DNA of 56,255 nt from positions 1-56,255 of the forward strand of contig JAGWBV010000032.1 in assembly GCA_021295715.1 (NCBI GenBank), in the 5' to 3' direction. Below, in pieces: positions 6,139 through 52,588 of this stretch. Position 1 is the stretch's first letter, and the number at the start of each line of letters is the position of its first letter. The notes under the pieces were generated by a model. That model did no database searches and was not told the origin of the DNA. It was given only the letters and a program-made list of their open reading frames with translations. Both the position numbers and the translations under genes were made by a program. Source of the stretch: Candidatus Poribacteria bacterium. Its GTDB lineage: Bacteria > Poribacteria > WGA-4E > WGA-3G.

Positions 6139-7482
6139 ATGCACAGAAGTCAATCGTTTAAAATAATAATTCAGTGGAGCCTCCTCATTGTATTGGTAAC
6201 CGGGTGCCAAGATGATACGGCGGTTCTGAAAAAGAGTGAAGAACTTCTGAACGCTGGAACGCCACAAGCAGCAGTGGAAGAACTGGAGGCTTATATCGAA
6301 ACGGTGCCTGAGGAGCCGAAGGCACGAATGTTGCTCGGGAAAGCCTACAATGACTTAGGGCGTTATAACGACGCGGTGCTGGAGTTACAGAAGGCATCAC
6401 AACTTTATGCCGCACAACCGGAAGAACGGATTGCAGCACGACTTGAGTTGGCTCGTACCTATTTAAGATTCGGTGATAGGGGTTCCGCTTTTCGTGTGCT
6501 ACGACTCGTTCAGCGGAGCACACTGGATCCTGAAGTGTTGCGCGAAATTATTGAACTCGTCGGAGACACTTATCATACAAAACAGTTGACCCGTGGTGAT
6601 TCAGATAACTATTCACCTACCTTTTCTCCGGACGGCAGACAAATTGCCTTTGCATCCTTTCGACTCGACAATGGCGAAATCTATTTAATGGACTTAAATG
6701 GGCGTATCCAACGGCGTGTAACCTTCACAACAGATTTCAACGATAGTTCACCGGCGTTCCTCAAGACCCCAAACTATCTGTTCTATAGCAGCGAACCGAA
6801 GTCATCTCGCGAAGTTAAAGTTGTCATCCAAAGCAGCGGCTCCACTCCGATTTACGCCGGATTCCATGTAACACATATTCATAGCAAAATAACGCGAACC
6901 GTTTTACCTGTGAGTTTCGGTGCCCGTGTGCCTCGGACATCGCCTGTTGAAGATCAAGTTGTTTATGAATCCAATGTAGATGGGAATCTGGAATTATATC
7001 TCATCAATTTAGCAGGGCTTGATCTCGCACAACTCACACCAGAAGACATTGAGCCGAAACGTATCACTTTTAACGAAACCGATGACGGAAGTCCCGCGTT
7101 CTTCCCGGACGGAAAACGCATTATATTTGTCTCCTCTCGCAATGAAGTAAACCAACTTTACACCATAGACATTGACGGAAAAAATGAGAAACATTTCAAT
7201 CCAAGTCGCTGGGGGTGCTACAATCCCACGGTGTCGCCTGATGGAAAAACGATTGCGTATGTCTCCGCCAGAGAAGGCGACTGGGAGGTATATCTCATTG
7301 ATGCAGATGGTAAAAATGAGCGGCGGATTACCAGTGACATCGGTAGGTCTATTCAACCCGCCTTTTCGCCTGATGGTCGCTACCTCGCGTATGTTTCCGA
7401 TAGGAGTGATACTTTCCACATCTACCTGATGTCTCTCGACAAACCTGTCACTCGTGAGGATTTAGCCAGACGCTTACAATAG
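6139..7482 (+). CDS. TPR and TolB-like beta-propeller lipoprotein
   Basis: A 447-residue lipoprotein. A short signal peptide ends in the lipobox LVTGC (Cys23). Residues about 30-140 are TPR-like helices (TPQAAVEELEAYIE, ARMLLGKAYNDLGRYNDAV). Residues about 150-435 carry at least four PD40/TolB repeats of the type SPTFSPDGRQIAFASF, SPAFFPDGKRIIFVSS, NPTVSPDGKTIAYVSA and QPAFSPDGRYLAYVSD. Such proteins are periplasmic and bind partners through the propeller; the specific role is unknown. An in-frame GTG at 6121 would add six residues. I prefer ATG 6139 because it gives a standard lipoprotein signal, but neither start has a convincing ribosome binding site. Confidence 0.8.
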   Translation: MHRSQSFKIIIQWSLLIVLVTGCQDDTAVLKKSEELLNAGTPQAAVEELEAYIETVPEEPKARMLLGKAYNDLGRYNDAVLELQKASQLYAAQPEERIAARLELARTYLRFGDRGSAFRVLRLVQRSTLDPEVLREIIELVGDTYHTKQLTRGDSDNYSPTFSPDGRQIAFASFRLDNGEIYLMDLNGRIQRRVTFTTDFNDSSPAFLKTPNYLFYSSEPKSSREVKVVIQSSGSTPIYAGFHVTHIHSKITRTVLPVSFGARVPRTSPVEDQVVYESNVDGNLELYLINLAGLDLAQLTPEDIEPKRITFNETDDGSPAFFPDGKRIIFVSSRNEVNQLYTIDIDGKNEKHFNPSRWGCYNPTVSPDGKTIAYVSAREGDWEVYLIDADGKNERRITSDIGRSIQPAFSPDGRYLAYVSDRSDTFHIYLMSLDKPVTREDLARRLQ

Positions 7483-7513
7483 CCGTCGGCAGTCAGCCGT
7501 CGGCAGTCAGTAG
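7481..7513. repeat. Heptanucleotide array
   Basis: Four consecutive 7-mers alternating AGCCGTC-type and GGCAGTC-type units start at the TAG stop codon of the preceding gene. The same degenerate AGTCAGC unit recurs at about 12130, 18515, 21478, 36725, 39850, 44815 and 48906. Confidence 0.6.
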
Positions 7514-7587
7514 AGCATGTGGCAGGTGAGAACGTTTGCAACCGCCACAGGTCCCTGATAGCCATTAAGAAAGGAGGTTAGAAAATC

Positions 7588-11061: not shown

Positions 11062-13380
11062 ATGGCATTTCTCAACCCATTTTTCCTTTTCGGACTTCTC
11101 GCCACTGGTATCCCTTTAGTCATTCATCTCTGGAACCGTCGTCGTGTTGTGACAATCGATTTTAGCAGTCTGATATTCATCACAGCCGCACACCGCGAAA
11201 ATGCTCGCCGATTCCAACTCCGTCAGTTTCTCATTTTGCTTCTAAGAATGGCAGTTATCGCACTCATTGCACTCGCATTGGCACGTCCTTTTTTGACACT
11301 CGGACTTCCAGTCGCATCTGTGCGGGCAAAGACAGATGTGATTATCGTCTTGGATAACTCTTACAGTATGGCGTATCAAGACATCAATGGCATCAGATTC
11401 GACAAAGCGAAAATTTTGGCAACCGACATCATTGACTCTTTGCGACATGGCGATAGAGCCGCCCTTATATTAATGTCAGACATCCCAAAACCTATCTTTC
11501 GGCAACTCACACCCGACATTGAGAGCGTTACTGAAGCGATTAACGATACAGAAACTTCCTACCGCACCACGAATGTTCACCCCAGCCTTGAACTCGCCCA
11601 TGAAATTCTTGCTGAATCGGAGCAGCTCAACAAAGAAATCTATTTGATTTCAGACTTCGCTCAAAACGGATGGGAGAACTGGAATAGGCTTCCAAATCGA
11701 TCGGGTGCACGCATTGCTCTGATTCCGGTTGCTAAGGGTGAAGCACATAACATAAGTATTAAAGAAATTCGTCCGTCCAATCAACTAATAGGCGTAGATT
11801 TACCATTTCAATTCAACGTGACGACTGTGAACCATTCAGTAGCACCTTTGAATCAAAATATACTCACGCTGTTTATTGGAGGCGAGAAACAAAAAACCAT
11901 GAGTCTGTCTGCGGCAGCGAACGAATCGCTGAATACCGCCCTAACATACAACTTTTCGACGCCCGGTACGCATATCGGTTACCTCACGCTAACGGACGAT
12001 CGCCTTAATATCGACAATCGACATTATTTCGCTTTCGATGTCCTCGGTGAAGTCCGCGTCCTTTGTGTCGGCGAACAAACGGAATATCTAACATTGGCGT
12101 TAAATCCACATACAGATGGTTTCCGTCAGCAAAATAGCGGTCAGTCGTCAGTGGTCAATCGTCAGTTAAGAGAGGATTTGGTTAAATCAGATTCCTCTTT
12201 AACGGATAACCGAAAACTGATAACTGATAACTATTCCAATACCATGATTCTACCAACGCAGTGCACACCTGATGAATTTGAGACCTTTCCGTTGGAAGAC
12301 TATGATGTCATTATCCTTGCTGATGTAGGGACAATATCGCTCCGAATGAGTGCCCAACTTCAAGAATTCATTCGCCAAGGTAAAAGTCTTATTGCCTTCG
12401 TGAGTTCTCACAGCGACCCCACAAGCTACAACTTGTCTCAAAATGCTTGGTTACCTGCCCAACTTGGGAATCCGCTAACCTGGGTCCCACCACAACGAGT
12501 GCAGGCTTATGAGGAAACACATCCTATTTTCGACATTTTTCCAAGCGAAGGATTCTCTATGCAATACGCGCCGCAGTTTTACAATGGCATAGCACTACAG
12601 CCTTCGTCGGAGTCTAACGTTATTGCACGTTTCGGTGATGATACTCCCTTCCTCGTTGAACGAAGTCAAGGAACAAGTGCCGTGATGCTTTATAACTGTG
12701 GCTTGCTCGCTCGACTGGTGCCCGCGTCTCCTACAACGTCTGCTCGCACGGCGACCTACACAAACGATCTGCTCGTTAATCCGTATTTCCTGCCGATGCT
12801 GCAACAAAGTGTGCTTTACGCGACAATAGCCAGCAATAATATTTTAACAGGGCGTAGACATGTCGGGGACACCTATACAGGATACTATCCTCGGAGTGCC
12901 GGTGGAAAAGCGTCTATTCGTTTAATGACTGTCGGCAGTCAGCAAGAGGCGAGTGGTTCACTGGAAACCGATGGTTTCCAAAGGTTTCCGATAGCCGTTC
13001 TTCCAATCGCCGAAGACGGCACACTGCGATTTCAAGACACAGAACTTCCAGGCATCTATCAAGTCGAGGTGCAAACACAAAACAGAATTCAACGCGACTT
13101 TTTTGCTGTTAATGTGGATACGACTGAATCTGATTTAACAGGGATCCCGTTGGCACAGGCAGCGGCGAGAGTCGGCGCGCAAACAACAGCAGATCAGGAA
13201 ATCGAAGGAACAACGGTAGCGGCTGATGCTTACAACGTTCAGCGACACGGTAGAGAAATTTGGGGTGAATTGCTCATTTTAGTCGTCTGTCTTATGCTTT
13301 TTGAAAGTTTTCTCTCAAACCGGGGGCCCCAACCGTTACAGGGAAGGGGCGAAGGGACACTGACCGCAGGTGGAGTATAA
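11062..13380 (+). CDS. BatA/VWA domain membrane protein
   Basis: A 772-residue protein. The N terminus (residues 1-85) has the BatA layout: a first membrane helix in FLFGLLATGIPLVIHL, then LWNRRR and a second helix near 55-80. A von Willebrand A domain follows, with the MIDAS motif D98-N-S100-Y-S102. Residues about 350-395 are encoded by an inserted heptanucleotide repeat and read as a Ser/Gln/Asn/Arg-rich linker. The C terminus has another membrane helix (ELLILVVCLMLFESFL). Such proteins accompany MoxR and transglutaminase genes and are thought to take part in envelope or chaperone functions; no MoxR gene is present here. The ATG is placed by the leader repeat. Confidence 0.8.
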   Translation: MAFLNPFFLFGLLATGIPLVIHLWNRRRVVTIDFSSLIFITAAHRENARRFQLRQFLILLLRMAVIALIALALARPFLTLGLPVASVRAKTDVIIVLDNSYSMAYQDINGIRFDKAKILATDIIDSLRHGDRAALILMSDIPKPIFRQLTPDIESVTEAINDTETSYRTTNVHPSLELAHEILAESEQLNKEIYLISDFAQNGWENWNRLPNRSGARIALIPVAKGEAHNISIKEIRPSNQLIGVDLPFQFNVTTVNHSVAPLNQNILTLFIGGEKQKTMSLSAAANESLNTALTYNFSTPGTHIGYLTLTDDRLNIDNRHYFAFDVLGEVRVLCVGEQTEYLTLALNPHTDGFRQQNSGQSSVVNRQLREDLVKSDSSLTDNRKLITDNYSNTMILPTQCTPDEFETFPLEDYDVIILADVGTISLRMSAQLQEFIRQGKSLIAFVSSHSDPTSYNLSQNAWLPAQLGNPLTWVPPQRVQAYEETHPIFDIFPSEGFSMQYAPQFYNGIALQPSSESNVIARFGDDTPFLVERSQGTSAVMLYNCGLLARLVPASPTTSARTATYTNDLLVNPYFLPMLQQSVLYATIASNNILTGRRHVGDTYTGYYPRSAGGKASIRLMTVGSQQEASGSLETDGFQRFPIAVLPIAEDGTLRFQDTELPGIYQVEVQTQNRIQRDFFAVNVDTTESDLTGIPLAQAAARVGAQTTADQEIEGTTVAADAYNVQRHGREIWGELLILVVCLMLFESFLSNRGPQPLQGRGEGTLTAGGV
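12130..12238. repeat. Heptanucleotide repeat inserted in frame in the VWA gene
   Basis: GGTCAGTCGTCAGTGG at its left and CTGATAACTGATAACT at its right enclose TTAAGAGAGGA...TCCTCTTTAA, an inverted repeat. The same arrangement (AGTCAGC-type units around an AAGAGG core) occurs between genes at 36725-36825 and 48906-48990. Here it is about 110 bp long and leaves the reading frame open. Confidence 0.6.
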
Positions 13381-17432: not shown

Positions 17433-18527
17433 TTAATCCGCTGCTTTTTGCAAATGGATGTTCCCGCCAGAGGTATGCAATTTCAGCAAGGGACCGCCGC
17501 CATTGATGCTACCTTTCAATCTATTTCTGGGAACCTTCCCCTGGATAATCGATGCCACCACAAAATCCGTTGAGACGCGTCCACCGCTGGTTTCCGCGTC
17601 TACGTCAATCGCAATATCTGGGATAAGCGTGACGGTTATTCCACCACCCGACGTGCGCAAACGACACGCCTCCTGGAGTTGTGTTTTCATAACGGCATGG
17701 ATGGAGCCTCCCGAAGTTTTGGCATTTACATCGCCACCGACGTTTTGTAACCTGATACCACCGCCAGAGGTCTGGACATCTGCCCCTCCACTGCACCTGG
17801 CAACCTTGATACTGCCGCCTGATGTCTTGCCCCAGATAGAACCCTGAATCTCACCGAAGCGAAGACTACCGCCAGAAGTTTGTGCTTGAACGTCACCCGC
17901 GACATCGACGACTTCGATACTACCCCCAGATGTTTTCAAATCGATTGGACTCCCACACGATGTGAGTTTGATGCTGCCACCGGAGGTCCGTCCCCACACC
18001 GTTCCTGTGATGTTCCCGAAACCTAAACTCCCACCCGAGGTATGTGCTCGAACCTTACCCTCAAGGTCACCGACTTTGATGCTACTGCTTTGGGTCGTCA
18101 AATCAACATTATAGTTTTTGGGGACCGTCACGTGGAAACGAATTTCCAAGCGATTCAGTATTTTTCGCCAACGTTCTCGTCCATGTTTGAACTTACTCTC
18201 AGTATGAACATCGGTATCCTCGGGCGAGAATGATACCTCAAAGTCAGCAAGTGCTTCTTTTGCCGATCGTTTCAAGGATTTTGCCGCTTTTGTGATCACG
18301 ATTTCAATCTCATCCTGTTCGGCGGTTTGGATTTCAATTGCTCCGAGTTCCGACGCAATTGTTAAACTTCCTCCAGCCTTGACGCTATATGTTCTTTCAA
18401 TCTTTTCCAAAATCGATTCCTCCGCCGTTAGAGACATGGATTGGCAACCAACACTATAGAATAGAAGTAATGTTGAGAAAAAATGGATAGCGCGATAAAC
18501 ACTTTTATCATTTTGGCTATCAGCCAT
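17433..18527 (-). CDS. DUF4097 beta-repeat lipoprotein
   Basis: A 364-residue probable lipoprotein: the hydrophobic stretch FFSTLLLFYSVGC ends in a lipobox-like Cys28. Residues about 35-130 contain IERTYSVKAGGSLTIASELGAIEIQT, the typical start of the DUF4097 family. The rest is a right-handed beta-repeat in which TSGGS/TSGGG recurs about ten times, roughly every 19-23 residues. The family is of unknown function and sits in the periplasm or at the envelope. An in-frame ATG at 18584 lies within a heptanucleotide repeat and would add 19 basic residues, so I chose 18527. This start is also in the repeat and lacks a ribosome binding site, so the N terminus may have been rebuilt by the insertion. 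The gene converges with the DUF6785 gene, 10 nt apart. Confidence 0.75.
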   Translation of the reverse strand: MADSQNDKSVYRAIHFFSTLLLFYSVGCQSMSLTAEESILEKIERTYSVKAGGSLTIASELGAIEIQTAEQDEIEIVITKAAKSLKRSAKEALADFEVSFSPEDTDVHTESKFKHGRERWRKILNRLEIRFHVTVPKNYNVDLTTQSSSIKVGDLEGKVRAHTSGGSLGFGNITGTVWGRTSGGSIKLTSCGSPIDLKTSGGSIEVVDVAGDVQAQTSGGSLRFGEIQGSIWGKTSGGSIKVARCSGGADVQTSGGGIRLQNVGGDVNAKTSGGSIHAVMKTQLQEACRLRTSGGGITVTLIPDIAIDVDAETSGGRVSTDFVVASIIQGKVPRNRLKGSINGGGPLLKLHTSGGNIHLQKAAD

Positions 18528-18604
18528 CGGCTGTCGGGAACCTTTAGACAAGAGGTTTATTCGTGAACTCTCGCTGCGAGGCAATCCGCTTGCTGATGGC
18601 TGAC
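18513..18604. repeat. Heptanucleotide array overlapping a gene start
   Basis: TGGCTATCAGCCATCGGCTGTC at the left and TTGCTGATGGCTGACT at the right enclose an AAGAGG core. This is the same composite as at 36725-36825. It covers the start region of the DUF4097 gene and the gap up to the preceding gene. Confidence 0.55.
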
Positions 18605-18611
18605 TCCTATT

Positions 18612-21465: not shown

Positions 21466-21507
21466 GGGCTAACGAAAACCTCTTTACTGACTGCTGACAA
21501 CTGATTG

Positions 21508-22488
21508 CTAACCGCTAAACGGCGCGATTGCTTCACGGAATGCTTTAATATGTACTGGCGTTGTCCCACAACAGCCACCTATTAAGTAAGCCCCTGCTTC
21601 AAGGAGTGTGGGAACGTAACTTGCCATCTCTGTTGGGGTCTGCGTATAGACGGTTTGGTGGTTCTCATCAAGCTTCGGCATGCCAGCGTTAGGATACGCC
21701 ATCATCCGCTTACCATTAATTCCTGTTGCAGTGAGTGCTGTGTGCAACTGTTGGGTCCCGAAAATCGCATAAGGCATTCCCGTATGTTCATCGCGTCTGG
21801 ATTCGGCACCACAGTTCACGCCGATGATACTCACCGACTCCAACAGAGAATCTCCTGCCGCAGATTCGTTGTTCATGAGAATATCAATTAGATCTGCTGG
21901 AGAATTTCCCCAGTCAGTTCGATAGATGATATTACCGGTGCGCCGTTCTTTTGTCCATTTGTAGGTCATGTTCACGGCAATAGGGATACCTGTCTCGCGC
22001 GCAACATCTACAGCGATCGCCGCTTCTTTGGCAGAAAACATCGTCTCAAGACAAAGAAAATCCACGCCTTCTTCTGCGAGGGTATGGATAACCAATTTAT
22101 GTGCCTCTCTCGCGTCCGCATTTGGAATGCCGAAAGTGGTATCTCCGCTGTCGGCTTCAATGGCACCGGGAGAGGGTCCCACAGAACCAGCAATATAGAC
22201 CTCTCTGCCACTCTGTTCGACAGCTGTTTTAGCGTGTTGAACGGCGAGTCGCGTGAGCCGTTTCGCATCGGATTTGTCTTGTCCCGCCATCTCCAAGTGA
22301 AGCGGAGATGCCACGAACGTGTTTGTCCCAATCGCTTCAGCTCCCGCACTGATGTAATCCGAATGAATATCAGGAACAGCGGTGGGGTGTAGCTCGTTGG
22401 CAAGTGCGCTGTTAGCGAGTTCTATACCACGCGCAAATAACTGTGAACCAAACCCGCCATCGTATAAAATTGGTTCATTAGACTTCAA
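21508..22488 (-). CDS. Homocysteine S-methyltransferase family protein
   Basis: A 326-residue (betaine/cobalamin)-homocysteine methyltransferase-type barrel. The zinc ligands are all present: Cys226 in GVNCGAES and Cys306-Cys307 in GGCCGTTPVH. ILYDGGFGSQLFARG near the N terminus is the usual family opening. These enzymes move a methyl group to homocysteine or a corrinoid. It lies on the same strand as the corrinoid protein and its activator (23120-25790), separated by a repeat-rich 630-bp gap, so the three may form a methyl-transfer module. The start is uncertain: TTG 22488 is the first canonical start, but conserved-looking residues (NFQERL) precede it in frame back to the leader repeat. A non-AUG start further upstream is possible. 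The final two codons fall in a heptanucleotide array. Confidence 0.8.
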   Translation of the reverse strand: MKSNEPILYDGGFGSQLFARGIELANSALANELHPTAVPDIHSDYISAGAEAIGTNTFVASPLHLEMAGQDKSDAKRLTRLAVQHAKTAVEQSGREVYIAGSVGPSPGAIEADSGDTTFGIPNADAREAHKLVIHTLAEEGVDFLCLETMFSAKEAAIAVDVARETGIPIAVNMTYKWTKERRTGNIIYRTDWGNSPADLIDILMNNESAAGDSLLESVSIIGVNCGAESRRDEHTGMPYAIFGTQQLHTALTATGINGKRMMAYPNAGMPKLDENHQTVYTQTPTEMASYVPTLLEAGAYLIGGCCGTTPVHIKAFREAIAPFSG

Positions 22489-22501: not shown

Positions 22502-22673
22502 TTTTTAATTTTACCTTGCGGAGAAACGACGAGCGTTAGAATTTTGACGTGCGTTCCTTAAATCCGCCCTCCAAATGTAAAGCATTCTGCGCAGGTCTCC
22601 TATGGAGGCTTGCGGGACAATGCGAAGCAAAATTATGCCATTTATGGCATAATTTCATTACAGGCTATGTGCT
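22502..22673 (-). repeat. 5'-leader repeat element, copy 10, with an insertion in the hairpin loop
   Basis: The minus strand reads AGCCTGTAATGAAAT at the 5' side and GGAGGGCGGATTTAAGGAACG further on. About 80 nt of foreign sequence lie between the two halves of the first hairpin, including the perfect palindrome AATTATGCC-ATTTA-GGCATAATT type at about 22630-22655. The second stem (AGGAACG/CGTTTCT) and CCGCAAGGTAAAATTAAAAA are retained. Confidence 0.6.
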
Positions 22674-25790: not shown

Positions 25791-26187
25791 GAGCTTTGAA
25801 GCCTCCTCAAAGATACAATGATACCACACACTCGGAAAAATAACAAGTGAATTTTGGAATGGACTCAATGCCATTCAGTTTTCTGGTAGGCGAAAACTCC
25901 GATTCCCGACTTTCTTCTCTAAGAGCAACCTACCGGCAGCGAGTTATCATACACAACCAACAGAAAGTCGAACACTAAATGCCCTATAATATGAGACGGG
26001 TATTGTATCACAGATTGCGTGGAACGTCAAAAAAACAAGAAATTTTTAGCGGAATTTAGAGAATAATCCGCGATTCAGATTATCGGAGAGAAAAATTGAA
26101 AGTGTTCTACTTTATGAGCATGAAGATTTTCGCGGCTCATAATCGAAAAGGGCCTCCCCGGTAGCGTCCATACGGTTTCAAGCGGAT

Positions 26188-28332: not shown

Positions 28333-28738
28333 TCTTTTGATCCTCGATATATTCTTTGACGACTTTTAGAGATACACAGCCCACAGATGATATGAACTTT
28401 GAACGCGTCCAAAGGGAAGGTAAGCGGGATTTAAGGTGTGGGAACTCTTCTCTGAGTATCCGAGACGTATAACCTTTGATTAATCCCACGATCCGAGTAA
28501 TAGGCACTTTCGGATTGTTCTCAAGTATCAGGTGTACGTGGTCTTCCATAATCTCACTGGCACGCACTTTGAAATCTAATTCTGTTTGTTTGGAGCAGAT
28601 TAAATGGTGCAAACGCTCTTGGATAGACGCGTCTAAAACTTTGCGTCTGTATTTGGTACACCAGATAATGTGATATTGACAACTATAAACCATGTGGGTA
28701 TCTGAATACCAATCTTTTTCGGGGTTCTTGATAAACAT
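28325..28738 (-). CDS. tnpA: Y1 HUH transposase of the IS200/IS605 family
   Basis: A 137-residue single-strand transposase. The metal-binding HUH motif is H67-V-H69 in EDHVHLILE. The catalytic tyrosine is most likely Y130 in VVKEYIEDQ. The N-terminal MVYSCQYHIIWCTKYRRKVL is the family signature. The gene is complete, in contrast to the tnpB beside it. TnpA excises and inserts the element as single-stranded circles and could act on the copy here. Its stop overlaps the tnpB start. Confidence 0.9.
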   Translation of the reverse strand: MFIKNPEKDWYSDTHMVYSCQYHIIWCTKYRRKVLDASIQERLHHLICSKQTELDFKVRASEIMEDHVHLILENNPKVPITRIVGLIKGYTSRILREEFPHLKSRLPSLWTRSKFISSVGCVSLKVVKEYIEDQKSV

Positions 28739-34437: not shown

Positions 34438-34717
34438 TCTCCTTGCAGCATTATATCACATCATTCAGTGTCTTGGCAACATTTCATCAATATACCAGAG
34501 TCATTCAATTTTGGATTTTTTAACCATTTTGGTTGGAAAGTTGCGATTCAAAGGTCGCGTCTACTGGAGTATGTCGGGAATCGGAGTTCCCTCCTACAGG
34601 AGAACTGAATGCCTCTGCCAAGGTGAAGCAAAACAGAACTTATATAAATTTGATAAGCGCGCTGTCAAAGCGCGCCTATCGACAAAAGATCATTGGCGGA
34701 TTGCTGACCGCTATCCC

Positions 34718-36724: not shown

Positions 36725-36826
36725 TGGTTATCAGCCGTCGGTTATCGGCTATCAGTAAAGAGGTTTTTGGTAAAGGGCCCCTCTTGCTGACTGCCGACTG
36801 CTGACTGCTGACCGCTATTTTCAATG
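36725..36826. repeat. Heptanucleotide composite repeat
   Basis: GTTATCAGCCGTCGGTTATC at the left, AAAGAGG and CCCCTCTT in the centre, and GACTGCCGACTGCTGACTGC at the right. The units are 7 nt long and degenerate. It is the best-preserved intergenic copy. Confidence 0.65.
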
Positions 36827-37981: not shown

Positions 37982-38075
37982 ATTTTATTTTTTAATTTTC
38001 CTTGCGGTTCGGTCAGGTGGGTTGAATGAATGACGTTCCTCGGGTATATCCAGCCCTGCCCGTTGGTTGGGCTTA
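37982..38075 (-). repeat. 5'-leader repeat element, copy 11
   Basis: Minus-strand copy with AAGCCCAACCAACGGGCAGGGCT as the 5' hairpin, GGATATACCCGAGGAACG, then CCACCTGACCG and CCGCAAGG, AAAATTAAAAAATAAAAT, ATG. Spacing is 18 nt here. Confidence 0.6.
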
Positions 38076-38109: not shown

Positions 38110-41100
38110 TTAGAACATGCGATCCAAGCGCAAAATGATGATCGGATTTCGTAAGGAGAAAGATGAATTCAGTGGTTCTGCTACCTCAAGCGCAAGGCTC
38201 CATGGTGGCGGATTTCCGAACGGATCCCAAAAAACGGAGCATCCAATCCCAACAGACGTCTTCAACCGTGTCATAAAATTTTCAAAATCAGAAAATGGGG
38301 CATCGTCATACCACCATATACTACCCGCATCCAAGAAGCAACTGAGTGTCCACCCAAGGACACCATCTTGTTCGTTGGGAATTGTTTCTTTGATGAGCCG
38401 ATACTCAAGGTTAAGTAGGAGCCGATTATCCCCGGCGAATACATTAGAATCGTGACCGCGCACGGTATTACCACCCCCAAGGTGAAGGAGCCGTTGCCTT
38501 GGCAAGGGAGCATCAGAAAAATCACCTGCAATCCGAATATTCAGATGGTGTGAGCCGGACAAAGGTGTGTAGCGTGTCAACTCAAACCGATAGAAATTGA
38601 AGGCGTGGTCCCCACCGAAACTGTTCCCTGCTATCTCAACGGCGAAGTGTCCGCGCCATCCGCGTCGGGTCCGCTCATTTGCGGAAAACAGCGTGTGGAA
38701 ATGTCGTGTGGTCGTCGATCTGTGGTCTCGTGTATCAAACGCATAAACGAGAGAAAGACTTCTCAATTGTCCACGATTAATGCGTGAGTTTCCCCGCTTA
38801 ATCAGATTTCGGTTTAAGTAACTCCAATCCGTAGATTTGGAAAGGTTGTCGTGCCTTTCCCCAGTGAATTCCAGTCTAAGATACGACCATTCTGATGGCG
38901 CATAGGTTATCCATCCCTGAGACCCCTGACGTTGATAATAATCTTGAAATGCTGAACCATAATAGGAGGCACTCAGGCTGGCATTACCTTGATGTAGATA
39001 GAGATTAGAACTGACATCGGTGAGCTTATAGAAACTCCCTCCAAATTTGAGCATCTGCCTCTTAAAAAACCCTTTCTCAATACCGGCATGGTAGTTCCAT
39101 ATTTTGCTCGAAAATCCACGACTTATTGAACCGAAAACCTGTTCTTTACCCGTGAGGCGCGTCGAGAGTGTCCCACCCGCACCAAGCATTAATCCGTGAA
39201 CACGATTGAATTGAAGAATCGGGAAACCACCCGGTCTCGCGAACGGCTGCTCTTCAATGTCAACAATCATGACGTTTTTTCCACCCTCACGTTGAACATG
39301 CCAATTCCGAACCGATTTGAAATGCTCACTGTTTTTGCTGAGCTCCCGACGCATACCGTTTATCTTTGATTGACCGAGCGCATGATGGTAAATTTCTGGG
39401 GCTTGTGAATCTCCTACTCCATCACTATTTCCAGTGCTTAGGTTAAGTGCTGACAACAGTTCCGCTCGTGGGATTCGACTGTTTCCAGTGAAACGAATCT
39501 CGTGCAGGGTTCCCTCGTCAATGCTAAATTCCAAGACATCGTTGTCAAGTCGATGTGTGACAGTGGCGAATTCATAACCACGATTTACGTAAAAATCAGC
39601 AATTAATCGTTGCTTCAATCTAACAATGGTAGCGGCAAAATAGCCGGATTCTAAATGAAACCACTCCTTGATGAATCGTGAAGGGAAACTCCTGTTCCCT
39701 TCAATCTTAATTTGCTGAGCGAAAAGCACAGGGGCTTCCGTGACTCGAATATGCAAACTGACACTTGGAACGGAATCGGTTGGAAGGTTGGAAGAAGGGA
39801 AGGTTGGGTCCCCTTCCTCATCTTCCAGTCTTCCACCCTTTCGCTCTTCCATTCCAGTCTCTTGCTGATTGCTGACCGCTGATTGCTGACCGCTGTTGGC
39901 TTCTTCACTATCCCTCTCCACCTGCCGAGTTTCCAAACGCACATCTTGAAACCAATCCTGTTCCCTCAACTCTGCGATGAGCCAAGAAAGTTGCGGACTT
40001 GTGATAACATCTTCAGGCTGAATGGGAAGGGATTGTTGAACGACTTCTGTCGGAATAGTGGTATTCCCCTTGATTTCAAGGGTCGCAACCCGGATCTTAG
40101 TTTCGGATGCGAAGTCTGTAGAAGCGAGTGGTAGCGTAATGAATTCCAAAAGCCCCATTGCTGAACCATAACGTCCGGCAAGTGGGCCTGTATACTCTTG
40201 TGGCGAATGCGGCCACCACGGACGCTCGGTATCGTAAATTGGCAGCCAATAACTATATTCTCTGGATGTGGCAGGAATAAGACTCGCTATATTGCTACTA
40301 TGCATCTTACGATGGATGTTAAAAAGCCACTTGTTTTCAAAAGAGAGAGTTGACTGCGGATCCATTTTTGGTGAAGGTTCCAACATTTTACGCGGAAGAG
40401 CAATCTCAAGGCTCCAAAAAGTAGCGTTAATTTGACTTCCAACTTTTGCATTTGAATCCCACGCGCTGTCCGCCTTGAACGCCGTTTGCATCGTTTTTCG
40501 ATTTAAAGTGAGTTGGACATCATGCGGCGCGAACTGGAAACTCGGTTCTCCAGGCGTGTTGACCTGCTGGTCAAAATACGCGCGAATCGGGTTAATAACA
40601 AGGTGATAGTAAACATCAGTTTTCGGATTCGGATCAATCAGGATTTCAATACACTCGTCTTCCCAAATTGGTGAATCATGCTGGGTCTGTGAAATATACG
40701 GAAGCAGCGAATCGGACATGTACGCCTTTACACCGACATAGAAATTCTCGGTATCCCACAATAAAAAAGTTTCAGTTGAATTGCTTGGAACATCGGTGCC
40801 ATCTGGGTTTTGGAACGGAGAGAGTCGCGCAGCGGATTGCCACGCGATTTCAGATAAATTTCCATCAATAGTGGGCGGTTCTGCTGCGTGCGGGACGGGT
40901 TGAGCGAAATCTATGGTGAGATCCGTTTCAGCATCTGCGGATGTATTGCCGCCGCTTGTTGATCTCGGTAGGAGGGAAATCGCGTTGGTGGCTTTCAACC
41001 GAAACAGCGGTCCGCCATCGTTAATAATGGTCAGCCCCGTTTCGTCGTCAAATTGTGCGGGCAAATTAACAACGATCTGCTGTTTCTCACTCTCAAGTTC

Positions 41101-41925
41101 AATATCCGCGGCATAATTTTCGGGAAGTCGTAAACGGATGCTACCGCCTTGTGCGGTTATATCCATCGGTGTGGCAACAGGGTCAAGGACCACCAGTCCA
41201 ATTGAGCCATTCTGGGTCTCCAACTTGTTTTCTCCGTGGGTCAACAAAATTTTTCCGTCAATGTTGCCCTTGGTGACACGGATGTTATAATTGCCTAAGG
41301 TTTCATTTAAATGGATGTTCCCCGTCTCCGTTGAGGCTTCTATCTTTCCACGGATACGCTGAAGAGATATATCTCCGGTTTTGGCATAGAGCTTAACAGA
41401 AACATCCGGTGGCGTTTTGATTGTACATTTCAGTTGGAGTCCATCATAGCGCACTTCTTGTAATGCTATCGTGTTGGAAAGCGAGTTCGGCTGTGTTTCA
41501 GCGGACGTGTCCGGTAGTTGTATCCTTAACTGGAGTGTGTCATTGCTTTGCGTTCCTGTAAAGGTGATGTTATCAAGATAGTCTCGGATCAGATCGTCCT
41601 GTTGTGTATTTGTGGTTTCCCGTGCCTGCTTCTCAAGTGTAACGGTGATGACCTCGTCTTCTGTGGCAATCAGTTCGATATTACCCGATATATTCAAGCT
41701 GAGTTCTATATGATAAACATCTGCAAAACTGAAGGTTTTTGTTGACGCTGCCCCCACTATCAATGTCTGGGTTTCACGAATTGAATCGTTGACGGGTGGA
41801 GGCGGTGTGCTTCCTTCGCCTTCATGATCCGCCGCGTATGTATGCTGGACTGGTAAATTCAGCGTGAGCATGAAAAAATAAAATAGATATGAGTAAGAGA
41901 AAATCGTGCGAGATATGGGCAACAT
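38110..41925 (-). CDS. Chimeric outer-membrane protein: DUF4097-like, CBM9-like and Omp85 domains
   Basis: A 1271-residue exported protein. The signal peptide is FSYSYLFYFFMLTLNLPVQHTYA. Residues about 40-330 are a DUF4097-type beta repeat (GKIEASTETGNIHLNETLGNYNIRVTKGNIDGKILLTHGENKLETQNGSIGL). Residues about 345-560 are a CBM9-like domain (PPTIDGNLSEIAWQSAARLSPF, WEDECIEILIDPNPKTDVYYHLV). Residues about 610-840 contain POTRA-like repeats. The last 370 are an Omp85 barrel ending in IIILRLDRMF. Between the POTRAs (about residues 680-730) lies a low-complexity segment encoded by an inserted repeat. ATG 41925 has AAGGA upstream; a GTG at 42006 with a promoter 7 nt before it is the alternative. 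I have not seen this architecture described. Confidence 0.75.
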   Translation of the reverse strand: MLPISRTIFSYSYLFYFFMLTLNLPVQHTYAADHEGEGSTPPPPVNDSIRETQTLIVGAASTKTFSFADVYHIELSLNISGNIELIATEDEVITVTLEKQARETTNTQQDDLIRDYLDNITFTGTQSNDTLQLRIQLPDTSAETQPNSLSNTIALQEVRYDGLQLKCTIKTPPDVSVKLYAKTGDISLQRIRGKIEASTETGNIHLNETLGNYNIRVTKGNIDGKILLTHGENKLETQNGSIGLVVLDPVATPMDITAQGGSIRLRLPENYAADIELESEKQQIVVNLPAQFDDETGLTIINDGGPLFRLKATNAISLLPRSTSGGNTSADAETDLTIDFAQPVPHAAEPPTIDGNLSEIAWQSAARLSPFQNPDGTDVPSNSTETFLLWDTENFYVGVKAYMSDSLLPYISQTQHDSPIWEDECIEILIDPNPKTDVYYHLVINPIRAYFDQQVNTPGEPSFQFAPHDVQLTLNRKTMQTAFKADSAWDSNAKVGSQINATFWSLEIALPRKMLEPSPKMDPQSTLSFENKWLFNIHRKMHSSNIASLIPATSREYSYWLPIYDTERPWWPHSPQEYTGPLAGRYGSAMGLLEFITLPLASTDFASETKIRVATLEIKGNTTIPTEVVQQSLPIQPEDVITSPQLSWLIAELREQDWFQDVRLETRQVERDSEEANSGQQSAVSNQQETGMEERKGGRLEDEEGDPTFPSSNLPTDSVPSVSLHIRVTEAPVLFAQQIKIEGNRSFPSRFIKEWFHLESGYFAATIVRLKQRLIADFYVNRGYEFATVTHRLDNDVLEFSIDEGTLHEIRFTGNSRIPRAELLSALNLSTGNSDGVGDSQAPEIYHHALGQSKINGMRRELSKNSEHFKSVRNWHVQREGGKNVMIVDIEEQPFARPGGFPILQFNRVHGLMLGAGGTLSTRLTGKEQVFGSISRGFSSKIWNYHAGIEKGFFKRQMLKFGGSFYKLTDVSSNLYLHQGNASLSASYYGSAFQDYYQRQGSQGWITYAPSEWSYLRLEFTGERHDNLSKSTDWSYLNRNLIKRGNSRINRGQLRSLSLVYAFDTRDHRSTTTRHFHTLFSANERTRRGWRGHFAVEIAGNSFGGDHAFNFYRFELTRYTPLSGSHHLNIRIAGDFSDAPLPRQRLLHLGGGNTVRGHDSNVFAGDNRLLLNLEYRLIKETIPNEQDGVLGWTLSCFLDAGSIWWYDDAPFSDFENFMTRLKTSVGIGCSVFWDPFGNPPPWSLALEVAEPLNSSFSLRNPIIILRLDRMF
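39768..39902. repeat. Composite repeat inserted in frame in the Omp85 chimera
   Basis: GGTTGGAAGGTTGGAAGAAG at the left and TTGCTGATTGCTGACCGCTG at the right. The same bipartite element, with TTGGAAGG units then CTTCTTCCAGTTCC and heptanucleotide units, lies in the unrelated GT39 gene at 44715-44868. Confidence 0.65.
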
Positions 41926-42013
41926 TCCGGGGAGGTTCCTTTTAATCCGGGATATATGACAATGCAATATCGGTTTGTAAACCCTGACTACAGAATTGCT
42001 TGACACATTTTAA

Positions 42014-42042
42014 ATAATACAGTATACTTATTAGAAAGTCAA
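42014..42042 (-). promoter_or_regulatory. Sigma70-type promoter of the Omp85 chimera gene
   Basis: On the minus strand TTGACT (42042-42037), 17 bp, TATTAT (42019-42014). A GTG begins 7 nt after the box (42006), again at leaderless distance. The ATG at 41925, with its own ribosome binding site, is 80 nt downstream. Confidence 0.6.
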
Positions 42043-42151
42043 GCAGTTTTTTCGTATCCTTTATCGCTAACGCAGCGTTTCCAAAACAAAGCGATCAGAG
42101 GTAATATTTGTAACGAAATGGAAGAAAAAACGTTGCGTATAGGAGAGGATG

Positions 42152-43204
42152 ATGAGCGAACCCCTTAAAGAAGCAACAGAGTATTGTTTCTCTTTCGGAC
42201 CCTGGAACATACACGAGGGAATAGACCCTTTTGGACCCCCTGTTCGGGAGGCGTTCAGTTTCGATGAAAAAGTTGGGTTTTATCGCGATCTCGGTTTTGT
42301 TGGAATCCAATTTCACGACGATGATATTGTGCCGGATATTGACGAGAAAACACACGCACAACTGATAGCACAGACAAAAGCCGTCAAAAGACAGATCGAC
42401 AACCATGGTTTAACAGCAGAGGTGGTGGCACCGCGATTGTGGGAATCTCCACAGACTATCGATGGAGCTTACACTTCTAATTCTGCAAAAGAAAGACGCT
42501 ACGCACTGGAACGTTCAAAACGGTGTGTTGATATTGCTAACGAGGTAGGGTGTAAAAATCTCGTGTTGTGGCTTGCCCGGGAAGGCACATACATCCGGGA
42601 AACGAAAGACGCAGCAGCCGCAGTTGGACAAATTTTAGAAGCAATTAACGCGTTACTCGAATACGATCCAGAAATCCGAATCCTTATAGAACCAAAACCC
42701 AATGAACCGATGGACATCGCATATATTCCGACCATCGGACACGCTATTGGTTTAGCCTATGCCAGTGATGCACCGGAGCGCGTTGGCGGGTTAATCGAAA
42801 GTGCACACGCAATTCTCGCAGGTTTGGAACCCTCCGATGAGATGGGATATGCTCTCCATCATCAGAAACTTTGGAGCGTCCATCTCAACGATCAGAATGG
42901 GTTAAAATTCGATCAAGATAAAGCGTTCGGTTCCGTTAATTTGCGCCGTGCGTTTAATCAGGTACGGGTACTTGAAGAAAACGGATACGGTAGAAACGGT
43001 GAATTCATTGGATTAGATGTGAAGGTCATGCGGACACAACCACGGGACATCTCAACAAAACACTTATTGAGCAGTCGCAGAACCTTCCTGAATCTACTTG
43101 AGAAGGTCCGCACGTTTGACAAAAAGGTCGAACAGGAATTTATCGCAGCCCGAGACTATGAAGGTTTGGACTTCTACATCCTTGAACACCTTCTTGGAGC
43201 ATAA
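42152..43204 (+). CDS. Xylose isomerase family protein
   Basis: A 350-residue homologue of class I xylose isomerase. The catalytic pair is seen in FHDDDIVP (H55, D58). The metal site has E180 and K182 in LIEPKPNEP. The C-terminal LNDQNGLKFDQDKAFGSVNLRRAF corresponds to the segment with the second metal ligands. Isomerases of this type interconvert aldoses and ketoses, with D-xylose or a related sugar the likely substrate. It is somewhat shorter than typical XylA and lacks the C-terminal dimerisation extension. AGGAG lies 6 nt before ATG 42152; a preceding ATG at 42149 is less well spaced. It lies upstream of the adenylate kinase gene with an 88-nt gap. Confidence 0.8.
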   Translation: MSEPLKEATEYCFSFGPWNIHEGIDPFGPPVREAFSFDEKVGFYRDLGFVGIQFHDDDIVPDIDEKTHAQLIAQTKAVKRQIDNHGLTAEVVAPRLWESPQTIDGAYTSNSAKERRYALERSKRCVDIANEVGCKNLVLWLAREGTYIRETKDAAAAVGQILEAINALLEYDPEIRILIEPKPNEPMDIAYIPTIGHAIGLAYASDAPERVGGLIESAHAILAGLEPSDEMGYALHHQKLWSVHLNDQNGLKFDQDKAFGSVNLRRAFNQVRVLEENGYGRNGEFIGLDVKVMRTQPRDISTKHLLSSRRTFLNLLEKVRTFDKKVEQEFIAARDYEGLDFYILEHLLGA

Positions 43205-43292
43205 GGTTTATTATAGGCGTGTGTAGGAACGCTGTTGTAAAGCGCGCTAACTCAACGAAGAGGAAGACAGGCGGCAGAGGACGAAAACAGAC

Positions 43293-43943
43293 ATGACAAC
43301 GGATAAAAGCCTTCCACACGAGGCGGATGGACTGTGTTATCAAGCAGTGATACTTGTTGGTCCCCCTGGTGTCGGCAAGGGAACACAAGGGAAAATGCTG
43401 GCACAAATCCCCGGCATTTTCCACGTCTCCAGTGGGGATATGTTCCGCGAACTTGATAGCAATTCCAAATGCGGACAGATATTCCAACAATACGCAGGCA
43501 TCGGTAAATTAGTCCCAGATCACATTACAATCAAAATCTGGCAAGACTACATGGCGGCAAAAGTCCGCGAGCAGGTTTACGCGCCAGAAAGCGATCTGCT
43601 GATTCTCGATGGCATCCCACGCAACATTGTGCAAGCCGGTCTCATAGCACCTTATATAAAACTTTTTAAGGTAATCTATATGGTCTGTGAGGACCGGGAA
43701 GTGATGTTTAAACGCATCCGAGGACGCTCCCTGAAAGAAAATCGAATCGACGATTCTGAAGAAATTGTCGTTCGCTACCGGTGGGATGTTTACAAACGAG
43801 AAACCGAACCATTGATTGATTACTACCCGCAAGACCTCATTCGAATCATTGATGCCGATACGACTGCAGCGGATGTTCTTCATCAAATCCTCTCAGCCAT
43901 CGTGCCTATCCAAAAGAATTATTTCAAACCTCCCGTTATGTAA
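43293..43943 (+). CDS. Adenylate kinase-type nucleoside monophosphate kinase
   Basis: A 216-residue P-loop kinase. The P-loop is GPPGVGKGTQ (residues 23-32) and the NMP-binding helix region HVSSGDMFRELD follows. ILDGIPRN is the usual DGFPR motif, with Ile for Phe. The LID region (RGRSLKENRIDDSEEIVVRYRWDVYKRETEPLIDYY) is short and lacks zinc cysteines. It converts AMP and ATP to ADP. It has a 12-residue N-terminal extension compared with most Adk proteins and is not next to secY or ribosomal genes, where the housekeeping adk usually sits. It may therefore be a paralogue. Confidence 0.75.
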   Translation: MTTDKSLPHEADGLCYQAVILVGPPGVGKGTQGKMLAQIPGIFHVSSGDMFRELDSNSKCGQIFQQYAGIGKLVPDHITIKIWQDYMAAKVREQVYAPESDLLILDGIPRNIVQAGLIAPYIKLFKVIYMVCEDREVMFKRIRGRSLKENRIDDSEEIVVRYRWDVYKRETEPLIDYYPQDLIRIIDADTTAADVLHQILSAIVPIQKNYFKPPVM

Positions 43944-43977
43944 GCAATCACGCGAAATCCCACTTCTATTTTCCCAT

Positions 43978-45789
43978 TCACGGCATTATTGCATCGAGAC
44001 GGCGATAGACGCGGAGTTCTGGATGCGCAAGGGCGCGCATCGGAAACGGGGCACCGTTATCGGATATCATTTCGATGCCTAAGAACTTTGGTGCGCATCG
44101 GAATATTTTGTACAACTCATACGGACTTCCGTCCCCTAAAACCTGCGTATAGAACGCAAGTGTCTCCGCTAATTCAATCTCGCTGAGAGGGTACCAGTCC
44201 TCATCTCGATAACGTTGAGGCGCTTTTTCGTATTTGCGGAACACTTCATAATCCGGCATAACGATAAGTACCCATTTTACCTTTTCATCTGTCACACTGA
44301 AGTCTAACGCAGGGAGAAGCCAGTCGAATAGGATCTCTGGCGCGACAGCAACAGGTTCCTCTGGCGGAATGTGCGTGGTTATCCAGTTCGATGCTGCAAT
44401 CTTCGTTGGCTGCGAGAGCAGGATGGAGGCAAACGAGAGGGTATAAACCAATGAGTAAAGCACTACAACACCCCCCACGACTGTTCCAAACCATTTCCCA
44501 AATGTATTAAGCTCTTCAGTGGAACATGGAAAATTCACGCGCGCGCGCGGGTGTCCCAACGCTAACAGAGTTGCCACAATGCTCGGAAAACGTGTGAGCG
44601 TGGCAGCTCCCAGGACAGTGAGTGCCGGATAGAGTATCAGGAGGTGGCGGGCGAACTTAACTTTATGTATCCCGATAAATAGGAGATACGGAATGATGAA
44701 AGATAGTAAGAGGATGGATTGGAAGGTTGGAAGACTGGAAGATTCTTGGTTGGAAGGTTGGAAGGTTGAATGGTTGGGATCCCCATCCTTTCCTTCTTCC
44801 CTTCTTCCAGTTCCTTGCTGACTGCTATTCTTTCCCACTGCCGATTGCCGATTGCCGACCGCTTTAAGCGACACGAGCGCACACAAAACCCCCAAACTGA
44901 CGAGGAGCGCAAGCGGTAGACCCATGCCCCATTTCAAGAGCGTCCAGAGATAGGTAAGCCGATGTAGCAATCCAGAGTCCGCTGTAGCGATGAGACCGAA
45001 GTGTCCATGGTGATAATGAGTGGCTTCATACCAGAAATCCTCAAAGAAGAGATGCCACTCTGGTGAAATCAGGTCGATGAGCCAATAAGGGCAGAGGAGT
45101 GTAAAGGTTAATACGGAAATACCAATGGTTGTTGCGAATTTTTTATAAAATCCCTCACTCCTAATGAAGACCAACAAAGAGAAACCTACAAAGACGGTTG
45201 TAAATTTGACGGCGAAACCGGTTCCCGCGATGACACCGAGCCATACCGCAGTTTGAAATGTAGGCGCGACTGAAGAAGATCGCACACGTATCACGAGATA
45301 GAGAAACAAAGTCACACAGAAAGTCGCGGGGATGTCAACAAGTGCAAAACGCGATTCATTCGTGGCATGTAACATCGCGACAGCGAGCAATCCTACGGCA
45401 ATCTGACCTATACGTTTATTGTAACAGTGAACGCCAATGCGATAGGTGAACCAAAGTGTTGCCGTGGATAGCAGAACGTTGATACAGCGTGCCAGTAGGA
45501 TTACGTGGGCTTCCGTTAGCTGCAAACCGACAAGCGACAGTAATTTACCTATCCCAGCAATACTGTAAAACCATGCTGTTCCGGGCCAGTTATAGATTTG
45601 AGGTGGAGCTGTGAAGTGGATAAGGTTCAGCACATCTCGTGCGATGAGCACTTCACGTGGGTCAGGAGAATCAGGTAAGCCGATGTTTATCCCGATAAGT
45701 CGGAAACCGAAGCCGCTGATGAGGATCGCAGGTATAACAAAACGACTCGGGGAACGGAAATAGTTTGTCACCGCGAGAGGCACTCTCAT
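43978..45789 (-). CDS. Glycosyltransferase family 39-like (PMT-type) membrane protein
   Basis: A 603-residue protein with about 11 membrane segments. The first luminal loop holds the acidic PDSPDPREVLIARD motif, and TAWFYSIAGIGKLL and NESRFALVDIPATFCVTLFLYLV follow, as in ArnT/PMT-type transferases that use lipid-linked sugars. The C-terminal third is soluble (PEEPVAVAPEILFDWLLPAL...). Residues about 307-358 (GNRQSAVGKNSSQQGTGRRE...) are encoded by a composite repeat and form a hydrophilic linker between two membrane helices. The ATG follows the stop of the GNAT gene by 2 nt, so it is part of the same transcript. Confidence 0.75.
   Translation of the reverse strand: MRVPLAVTNYFRSPSRFVIPAILISGFGFRLIGINIGLPDSPDPREVLIARDVLNLIHFTAPPQIYNWPGTAWFYSIAGIGKLLSLVGLQLTEAHVILLARCINVLLSTATLWFTYRIGVHCYNKRIGQIAVGLLAVAMLHATNESRFALVDIPATFCVTLFLYLVIRVRSSSVAPTFQTAVWLGVIAGTGFAVKFTTVFVGFSLLVFIRSEGFYKKFATTIGISVLTFTLLCPYWLIDLISPEWHLFFEDFWYEATHYHHGHFGLIATADSGLLHRLTYLWTLLKWGMGLPLALLVSLGVLCALVSLKAVGNRQSAVGKNSSQQGTGRREEGKDGDPNHSTFQPSNQESSSLPTFQSILLLSFIIPYLLFIGIHKVKFARHLLILYPALTVLGAATLTRFPSIVATLLALGHPRARVNFPCSTEELNTFGKWFGTVVGGVVVLYSLVYTLSFASILLSQPTKIAASNWITTHIPPEEPVAVAPEILFDWLLPALDFSVTDEKVKWVLIVMPDYEVFRKYEKAPQRYRDEDWYPLSEIELAETLAFYTQVLGDGSPYELYKIFRCAPKFLGIEMISDNGAPFPMRALAHPELRVYRRLDAIMP
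44715..44868. repeat. Composite repeat inserted in frame in the GT39 gene
   Basis: GGATTGGAAGGTTGGAAGAC units at the left, CTTCTTCCAGTTCC in the middle, and CCGATTGCCGATTGCCGACC at the right. It shares its layout with 39768-39902. It leaves the frame open in the minus direction. Confidence 0.65.
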
Positions 45790-46922: not shown

Positions 46923-47100
46923 TTTTTAATTTTACCTTGCGGTTCGGTCAGGTGGGTTTTGAAGAATAACGTGCCTTTCCGTATATCCGCCTGCGTGTTT
47001 TTGCAATGTAATACAAGGAATGGAAATGTAATACAAGGAACGGATTTAGTCTCTCCCCAGACTAAATCCGGTATTTCTGCGTATTGTTGCAGGCTACGGT
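46923..47100 (-). repeat. 5'-leader repeat element, copy 12, with insertion in the hairpin loop
   Basis: The minus strand has TAGCCTGCAACA, then about 85 nt of insertion, then ACGCAGGCGGATATACGGAA, so GCCTGC and GCAGGC remain at the hairpin base. The insertion holds the perfect inverted repeat GGATTTAGTCT/AGACTAAATCC (47043-47070) and a 19-bp near-repeat (AATGTAATACAAGGAA twice). It ends CCGCAAGG, TAAAATTAAAAA, ATG. The remaining 47101-47275 holds the aroK promoter and a heptanucleotide-like pair. Confidence 0.65.
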
Positions 47101-47818: not shown

Positions 47819-48906
47819 CGAGAACCTTACACGTGGAGCTTGGAGACAACAGTTATCCGCTCGTTGTTGGGACAGGACTCCTTAACAACTTTGGAGAATT
47901 GCTCACACCGCATACGAAATCTAATAAGGTGCTCATTGTTTCGGATACCTATGTCAGAACGCGCTATCTGCCCGTTGTGCTGAAGAGCCTCAAAGATACC
48001 CGGCTTGACGTCCACGCAATCGAAGTCCCAGTTGGTGAAGAGAGCAAATCGCTGACGCAGTTTTCCCGGATACAGGACAGTTTGGTAGAACATCAACTTG
48101 ATCGAGGGTCAATGCTCATTGCTCTCGGTGGCGGTGTCATTGGCGATTTGGCTGGATTTGCCGCAGCCGTATACATGCGTGGCATTCCTTACGTTCAGAT
48201 TCCAACGACGTTACAGGCGCAAGTTGATGCCAGTGTCGGCGGCAAGACAGCGATTAATCACCCAAAAGGGAAAAACCTCATTGGTGCGTTTCATCAACCA
48301 AAGTTGGTTGTCATTGATGTAGATACGCTCAAGACTTTACCACAGCGCGACATCCGAGCAGGACTTATCGAAGTTATCAAAATGGGTGTTATCCGTGATG
48401 AACCGCTGTTTGAAAGGGTTGAAGAAAATCTTGAGACTCTCTTAAACTTAGATGACACAGTACTCATTGAGATGATCTCACAAGCGTGTGTCAACAAGGC
48501 AGAAATCGTCGCAAAAGATGAGAAAGAAAGCCGACTGCGGATGGTGCTAAATTATGGGCACACCTTTGGACACGCGCTGGAAGCACTGACGCATTATAAC
48601 AGGTATCGACACGGGGAAGCGGTTTCTATCGGTATGAATTGCGCCGCACAGTTAGCTACCAATTTAGGGATGTTCTCTGAGACCGATTTTCAACGACAGC
48701 GCACGCTCTTAAAGCGTGCAAAATTGCCCATCACTCTTCCTTCTGACCTTACCCCTGAAGCCTTATGTGACGCCATGTATTTAGATAAAAAGACGTTAGG
48801 TGGTAAACTCCGCCTCATTCTGCCGACGCGTATCGGAGAAGTCGTTATCCGCGACGATATAGAGGATCGGCAGGTTATAGAAGCAATTACGCAATGTTTT
48901 TGTTAA
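47815..48906 (+). CDS. aroB: 3-dehydroquinate synthase
   Basis: A 363-residue enzyme that converts DAHP to 3-dehydroquinate, using NAD and a metal. VPVGEESKSL (near 85) and ALGGGVIGDLAGFAAAVYMRGI (near 102-122) are NAD-binding landmarks. TTLQAQVDASVGGKTAINHPKGKNLIGAFHQP is the signature substrate-binding region. The metal ligands are in KAEIV (Glu), LNYGHTFGHALE and HGEAVSIGM (His). Full length. It is translationally coupled to aroK by a 4-nt overlap. A heptanucleotide array follows directly after the stop. Confidence 0.95.
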   Translation: MTRTLHVELGDNSYPLVVGTGLLNNFGELLTPHTKSNKVLIVSDTYVRTRYLPVVLKSLKDTRLDVHAIEVPVGEESKSLTQFSRIQDSLVEHQLDRGSMLIALGGGVIGDLAGFAAAVYMRGIPYVQIPTTLQAQVDASVGGKTAINHPKGKNLIGAFHQPKLVVIDVDTLKTLPQRDIRAGLIEVIKMGVIRDEPLFERVEENLETLLNLDDTVLIEMISQACVNKAEIVAKDEKESRLRMVLNYGHTFGHALEALTHYNRYRHGEAVSIGMNCAAQLATNLGMFSETDFQRQRTLLKRAKLPITLPSDLTPEALCDAMYLDKKTLGGKLRLILPTRIGEVVIRDDIEDRQVIEAITQCFC

Positions 48907-48990
48907 TGGCGGTCAGCGGTCAGCAGTCAGCAGTCAGAAAGAGATTGTTTCTGCTGATAGCCAACTATTGAAAGTTGATAGCCATAAATG
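48906..48990. repeat. Heptanucleotide array after aroB
   Basis: GGCGGTCAGCGGTCAGCAGT and another AGCAGTC unit, then AAAGAGA and an inverted GCTGATAGCC/GTTGATAGCC part. It begins at the aroB stop codon. Confidence 0.6.
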
Positions 48991-52480: not shown

Positions 52481-52588
52481 GTAGCCCGTAATGAAATGGA
52501 GGGCGGACTTAAGAAAAGGATGCTCAAGTTCAAACCCACGCCATTTAACCGCAAGGAAAAATAAAAAGCCGCAAGGAAAAATTAAAAA
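52481..52588 (+). repeat. 5'-leader repeat element, copy 13, with duplicated end module
   Basis: Stem GCCC/GGGC (AGCCCGTAATGAAATGGAGGGC). The end module occurs twice: CCGCAAGGAAAAATAAAAA and GCCGCAAGG, AAAAATTAAAAA, ATG. AAGG to ATG is 12 nt. Before it, 52324-52480 holds the hairpin GTCCA-GGTTTTTAGTTGCT-TGGAC and a part of the AATTATGCC palindrome; no gene. Confidence 0.7.

Follow-up and report, generated by a model that had tools for sequence, protein, structure and literature searches.

Wolbachia palindromic elements are grouped with the Rickettsia palindromic elements (RPE) as a similar system. RPE are palindromic repeats of ~100-150 bp that lie partly in intergenic DNA and partly, in frame, within unrelated genes, where they encode a conserved peptide, and they comprise several families (review of miniature inverted-repeat transposable elements, MITEs: PMC10969869). 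Here, we describe small hairpin-forming repeats from Candidatus Poribacteria, a sponge-symbiont bacterium, in a stretch of 56,255 nucleotides (nt) (contig JAGWBV010000032.1; the whole stretch is referred to as "the window") that belongs to an assembly of 5.14 Mb in 175 contigs: two unrelated genes of the window, one encoding a chimera of CBM9, POTRA and Omp85 domains and the other a GT39-like membrane glycosyltransferase, contain two copies of one composite hairpin repeat, at 39768-39902 and 44712-44866, respectively. With a probability of approximately 0.8, we consider these copies to belong to a superfamily of small hairpin-forming repeats that is specific to the genus and non-autonomous; inside genes, such repeats would be filtered by reading frame and by encoded peptide, and their cores would most likely be replaced via the arms.

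Tandem heptamers are also known from the short tandemly repeated repetitive (STRR) sequences of heterocystous cyanobacteria, which occur inside a functional gene (rnpB) as well; the STRR heptamers differ in sequence and are not known to surround a core. Heptamers of the sequence TAACTGA have been described as direct repeats in Beggiatoaceae, Cyanobacteria and Bacteroidetes, with a single inverted case; they are mostly intergenic and near start codons, and inside open reading frames (ORFs) they mostly take the orientation that is free of stops (10 sets), whereas every frame of the forward orientation contains stops (MacGregor 2015, PMC4679880, the text of which does not mention Poribacteria). 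The Poribacteria repeats are built on the same heptamer family (TCAGTTA/TAACTGA) and are also mostly intergenic, but here a core is enclosed between heptamer arrays that make up the two arms of a hairpin. Like the repetitive extragenic palindromic (REP) elements, the bacterial interspersed mosaic elements (BIMEs) and the bacterial MITEs, they are short, repeated, non-coding inverted repeats that are mostly extragenic; unlike these, they have no linked transposase and many of their copies lie within coding sequence, and tandem-heptamer arms with GAATRG ends are not described in the REP, BIME and MITE literature that we examined. Among the papers searched, none was relevant to palindromic or other repetitive DNA of Poribacteria, and an Rfam search of the window gave no match.

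Architecture and abundance of the repeat

In the coding direction, the composite repeat begins with tandem heptamers (AGCGGTCAGCAATCAGC..., unit TCRGYNN), which are followed by a junction and then by an octamer hairpin, with GGAAGNNN and CTTCCNNN units as the arms and a GGGNCCC-like loop between them. The junction, CAAGAGACTGGAATGGAAG, is constant and 19 nt long; CAAGAGACTGG is likewise given as the composite junction. Both composite copies of the window have the heptamer arm leading; in the intergenic copies of the same genome, an inverted heptamer arm, (NNRCYGA)n (GCCGATAGCCGATAGCC), is often present beyond the octamer hairpin. In simpler relatives, the same heptamer arms enclose a different core; the octamer hairpin can also occur on its own. 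Each element is a nested inverted repeat, with TCRGYNN units in the left outer arm, NNRCYGA units in the right outer arm and a variable core, i.e. the heptamer arrays are inverted pairs that flank a core, not merely direct repeats. The outer ends, measured in 14 elements, are GAATRG on the left and CYATTC on the right; the commonest unit of the left arm is TCAGTTA, while TAACTGA is the unit of the window arm at 12200-12232, where tandem TAACTGA copies are present. The flavours of the left and right arms are correlated across elements (r 0.60, p<1e-4; not significant in the window's own genome alone), and four of the five window elements fold with z-scores of -2.8 to -5.1 against shuffled sequences. 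The heptamer-armed span has a median of 99 nt, and the composites measure ~130-180 nt, so that both the palindromic form and the size are alike to those of RPE.

The initial annotation had recognised one composite repeat in the Omp85 chimera and GT39 genes, and both segments are indeed present, with one architecture; its borders hold for the Omp85 copy, and the GT39 copy extends to approximately 44712-44866. When the Omp85 copy is used as the query against its own assembly, 42 matches are found at E<=1e-3; among them is the GT39 copy (44748-44863), with E=3.3e-7, while E reaches ~1e-17 for the best of the other copies. All copy numbers reported here are the outcome of searches against assemblies, with the genus-wide set being sampled. 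In the own genome, a pattern of three heptamers gives 331+287 matches, counted per strand, compared with 20+55 for the reversed pattern that served as the control; it also matches many times in each of 35 other genomes of the genus (~42-465 per strand). In the sister genus, the matches are about tenfold rarer (0-52), and in most other families there are none or few, with the exceptions of G060 (45/39) and G052 (15/10). G060, a distant genome from another class of the same phylum, has abundant heptamer arrays of its own (TCAGTRATCAGTRATCAGT). In a 440 kb sample that was chosen independently of the repeat, 44 heptamer hairpins were counted strand-wise, compared with 0 in shuffled sequence. The elements are hundreds-fold repeated, mostly between genes (in the loci sampled, 50 of 57 hairpins with heptamer arms, assigned by an ORF rule with mechanically called ORFs) and some within unrelated genes. 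An assembly error is unlikely, as the elements are also present in one-contig assemblies (e.g. G010).

Copies inside genes: insertion, strand and frame

In three proteins, GT39, LpxK and the linker of the Omp85 chimera, the segment is an insertion and not an ancestral part of the gene. The GT39 segment is carried by G000, G010, G027, G001 and G009, and is missing from G017, G008, G024, G033, G007 and most other genomes of the genus, where the protein runs continuously through LVRLK-RGVGGLP, as well as from other families; it is not universal in distant lineages, and the GT39 relatives in named genomes (50/50) are all Candidatus Poribacteria from metagenomes. In LpxK, the composite is found in G000 and G013 only, with other inserts in G010 and G017, a short remnant in G008 and little or nothing in most others; in the Omp85 chimera, more than 18 species have only a short linker ahead of the POTRA domain that was detected. 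Clean empty sites are also found between genes, with flanks that are 92-94% identical. Both window copies lie inside long minus-strand ORFs, and the claim of in-frame entry into two unrelated genes is supported by the orthologues that are without the segment.

The Omp85 tree is hard to reconcile with the GT39 insert having been gained only once: the carriers are interleaved with the non-carriers and, with the exception of G010, have in common a changed right flank, so that one has to assume either that the segment was exchanged among species or that it was lost several times. The GT39 proteins of G034 (L004) and G018 (L007) have different, unrelated inserts in the same interhelix loop, which suggests that this loop accepts foreign segments readily. 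Those of G008 (L009) and G024 (L011) contain a further in-frame insert (VRLETAPTGGGAERLET...) at amino acids (aa) 425-431, which looks like another repeat family. In an AlphaFold model of the GT39 protein from the window (mean predicted local distance difference test score, pLDDT, 76.6), the insert appears as a low-confidence coil, with a block pLDDT of 44-59 and with helices 291-322 and 354-375 on either side; the "surface loop" of the initial annotation is thus retained only as a predicted disordered interhelix coil. Its placement of the Omp85 copy between POTRA-like domains is plausible and half borne out: the only POTRA domain that was detected (aa 765-832) directly follows the insert.

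Composite or related copies have been found in ORFs of the well-established families FG-GAP/UnbV, bacterial sugar transferase, LpxK, AAA_15, TPR/FG-GAP, double ABC ATPase, BatA/VWA and SpoIIE-type phosphatase, with the Pfam profile spanning the insert in LpxK and AAA_15; three more hosts in relatives have been recognised by sequence alone, i.e. L188, L200 (a TPR/FG-GAP protein) and L203/L210. Within genes, the composite copies are located in linkers or loops, on the sense strand and in one reading frame. For the count of frames, the coding sites were located by the DNA junction motif alone, and motif matches without a surrounding element (L181-L186, L189), which were taken as chance matches to ordinary proteins, were left out. 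The lengths of the heptamer and the octamer are not multiples of three, therefore a long tandem arm encodes the same cyclic peptide in every frame, the frame of the arm is uninformative and the frame of the junction alone was used. At all nine independent coding sites (9/9), the junction is in sense and in frame 0, encoding the peptide QETGMEE; GT39 is a tenth coding site, located by the initial annotation rather than by the motif. That stop codons alone force this strand and frame is an insufficient explanation, given that other frames are often open in the 18 intergenic copies, a few of which are weak motif matches: frames 0, 1 and 2 are free of stops in 13, 11 and 10 of them when read in sense, and in 5, 9 and 4 when read in antisense. 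Were all open frames equally tolerated, nine sites out of nine would be improbable, at an estimate well below 0.001. Because one strand and one frame are used while others are open, we infer selection on the encoded hydrophilic peptide.

Table 1. Heptamer-armed elements of the window and the genes that host them.
Feature	Coordinates	Strand	Details
Composite element in Omp85-chimera gene	39768..39902	-	Heptamer arm ~39862-39895, junction CAAGAGACTGGAATGGAAG 39846-39864, octamer hairpin ~39770-39845; without right heptamer arm
Composite element in GT39-like gene	44712..44866	-	Heptamer arm ~44839-44866, octamer hairpin ~44717-44811; without right arm
Full heptamer-armed hairpin (AATAG...CTATT), in frame in BatA/VWA gene	12132..12234	+	Third in-frame window element; core differs from composites
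Intergenic heptamer-armed hairpin	48906..48986		Between stop codon and following start
Intergenic heptamer-armed hairpin	36725..36822		Nine units
Heptamer-armed hairpin	18510..18606		Overlaps 5' end of ORF 17433-18584
Heptamer-arm element	7479..7568	+	Outer AATAG is source of stop codon for upstream ORF 6121-7482
Heptamer-arm fragment	21478..21520	-	Overlaps stop codon of ORF 21508-22488
Host gene, CBM9 + POTRA + Omp85 chimera	38110..42006	-	1298 aa; element at aa ~703-750
Host gene, GT39/PMT_2-like membrane glycosyltransferase	43978..45789	-	603 aa; element at aa ~309-357
Host gene, BatA N-terminal domain + VWA protein	11062..13380	+	772 aa

Turnover of cores and the rival explanations

Sites that are occupied in several species often hold different cores. 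At one position of the BatA gene, G000, G008, G010 and G001 each have a different hairpin; two genomes that are 92% identical around GT39 have different cores at one site, and at another the core has been lost and the arms kept. In the spacer near 48.9 kb, the left heptamer arm is present in 23 of 28 orthologous spacers of at least 45 nt, and both arms are present in 17; where the flanks share at least 80% identity (108 pairs), the elements are less than 60% identical in 93% of the pairs, close to the level of shuffled sequence, while two element-free spacers have a median identity of 0.70 and 0.58, a control that is not clean. As we propose it, different hairpins occur at one site in sister species because cores are replaced after the site is occupied. 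New sites would be reached at low frequency through some form of copying, be it transposition of a single strand in trans or a process akin to recombination; coding copies would survive only with a net length that keeps the frame and with a soluble encoded stretch, the arms being frame-tolerant and the unique junction being tolerated only as QETGMEE; and the core of an occupied site would be replaced over short evolutionary times, most likely through recombination between the repeated arms. Tentatively, the heptamer arms may act as sockets at coding and non-coding sites alike, with the resident core swapped for that of another family member as arms recombine with each other, inside one sponge-symbiont species and perhaps across species, in which case genes would carry an exchangeable in-frame linker cassette.

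Several observations weigh against the main reading, that of a superfamily of repeats. Spacers with other repeats turn over quickly too, so that core exchange may not be peculiar to the heptamer arms; the frame claim rests on nine sites, a small sample, in mechanically called ORFs; the linker of the Omp85 chimera is generally variable, and ordinary linker drift may explain part of its length differences; no mobile enzyme has been linked to the elements; and the GT39 element folds no better than shuffled sequence (z -0.7), as a decayed copy would be expected to fold.

Among the other explanations, a REP-like nature of the elements, with a Y1 (HUH) transposase acting in trans as their mover (IS200/IS605 type or REP-associated tyrosine transposase, RAYT, type), would account for hairpin elements without target duplication, and the sole Y1 transposase found in the own assembly (PF01797, IS200/RAYT-type) sits in the window, at 28337-28690, within a region delimited as 28325-28738. 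The flanks of this gene, as far as they were read, contain neither heptamer nor octamer arms, and the ends of 14 elements are GAATRG/CYATTC; for GTAG/CGTC tags, by which most REPs are defined (PMC3733652), no systematic search was made. We have not adopted this mover, which we regard as unlikely although not implausible.

A doubtful alternative, yet one that the intergenic positions keep in view, is that the repeats are domesticated regulatory hairpins, with the intergenic copies stabilising mRNA or controlling translation and the genic copies being by-products. The elements occupy the gap from stop to start: the stop of an ORF of at least 80 codons is found within a few bases at 33 of 114 outer ends (2% of random positions), and a start within 40 nt at 56 of 114 (25% at random). 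The element stands directly after a TATAAT-like box in two genomes (G008 and G001), and the TAACTGA repeats of Beggiatoaceae likewise adjoin start codons (PMC4679880). Against this, sister species have no element or an unrelated core at the same place, and compact spacers alone would yield the same positions, which may thus be the outcome of compactness as well as of function.

It is improbable that the repeats are MITEs derived from a DDE insertion sequence whose terminal inverted repeats match theirs: the inverted ends and the lengths of ~100-180 bp would suit such an origin, but direct target duplications of at least 3 nt, for which the initial annotation had suggested looking, are visible in 0 of 14 measured elements, and no insertion sequence with such ends was encountered, no whole-genome scan for one having been made. 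Expansion of low-complexity linkers in place by replication slippage, without any element having ever moved, agrees with the tandem heptamers and octamers of the arms, with the flexible linkers at the host sites and with the three units (21 nt) by which the GT39 heptamers of G000 and G010 differ, but it is largely refuted, and very unlikely, as no fewer than nine unrelated genes, and intergenic DNA as well, share the unique 19-nt junction and the order of heptamers and octamers, and orthologous sites of relatives are empty.

Two further repeats are dispersed in the window. One, ending with CCGCAAGGTAWAATTAAAAA, occurs at 1554-1618, 5158-5199, 9247-9311, 11019-11061, 15414-15537, 20722-20774, 22502-22544, 37989-38041, 46924-46976 and 52526-52567, mostly just 5' of ORF starts, and its spacers also change fast among species; the other, with GGAACTCCGATTCCCGAC, occurs in both orientations at 6042-6069, 25872-25931 and 34552-34611.

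Relation to the Rickettsia elements and significance

The likeness to RPE that the initial annotation had pointed out is upheld for behaviour only: in both systems, the elements are inserted in frame in unrelated genes whose orthologues are without them, and they encode a conserved peptide in one frame. In contrast to RPE, the Poribacteria elements occur in another phylum, have tandem heptamer and octamer arms and exchangeable cores, and encode other peptides, the comparison being one of behaviour and not of sequence. The system works like RPE, and we claim membership neither in RPE nor in the TAACTGA family.

In-frame, frame-fixed palindromic repeats have been discussed mainly for Rickettsia, and their occurrence in a distant, uncultured phylum suggests that this route of adding peptides to proteins arose more than once. 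In the annotation of Poribacteria, QQSAVSNQQETGMEERK-type stretches are to be read as repeat-derived. The large set of species with empty, filled and differently filled sites allows the study of how such repeats enter genes, why a single frame is tolerated and whether their cores are exchanged.

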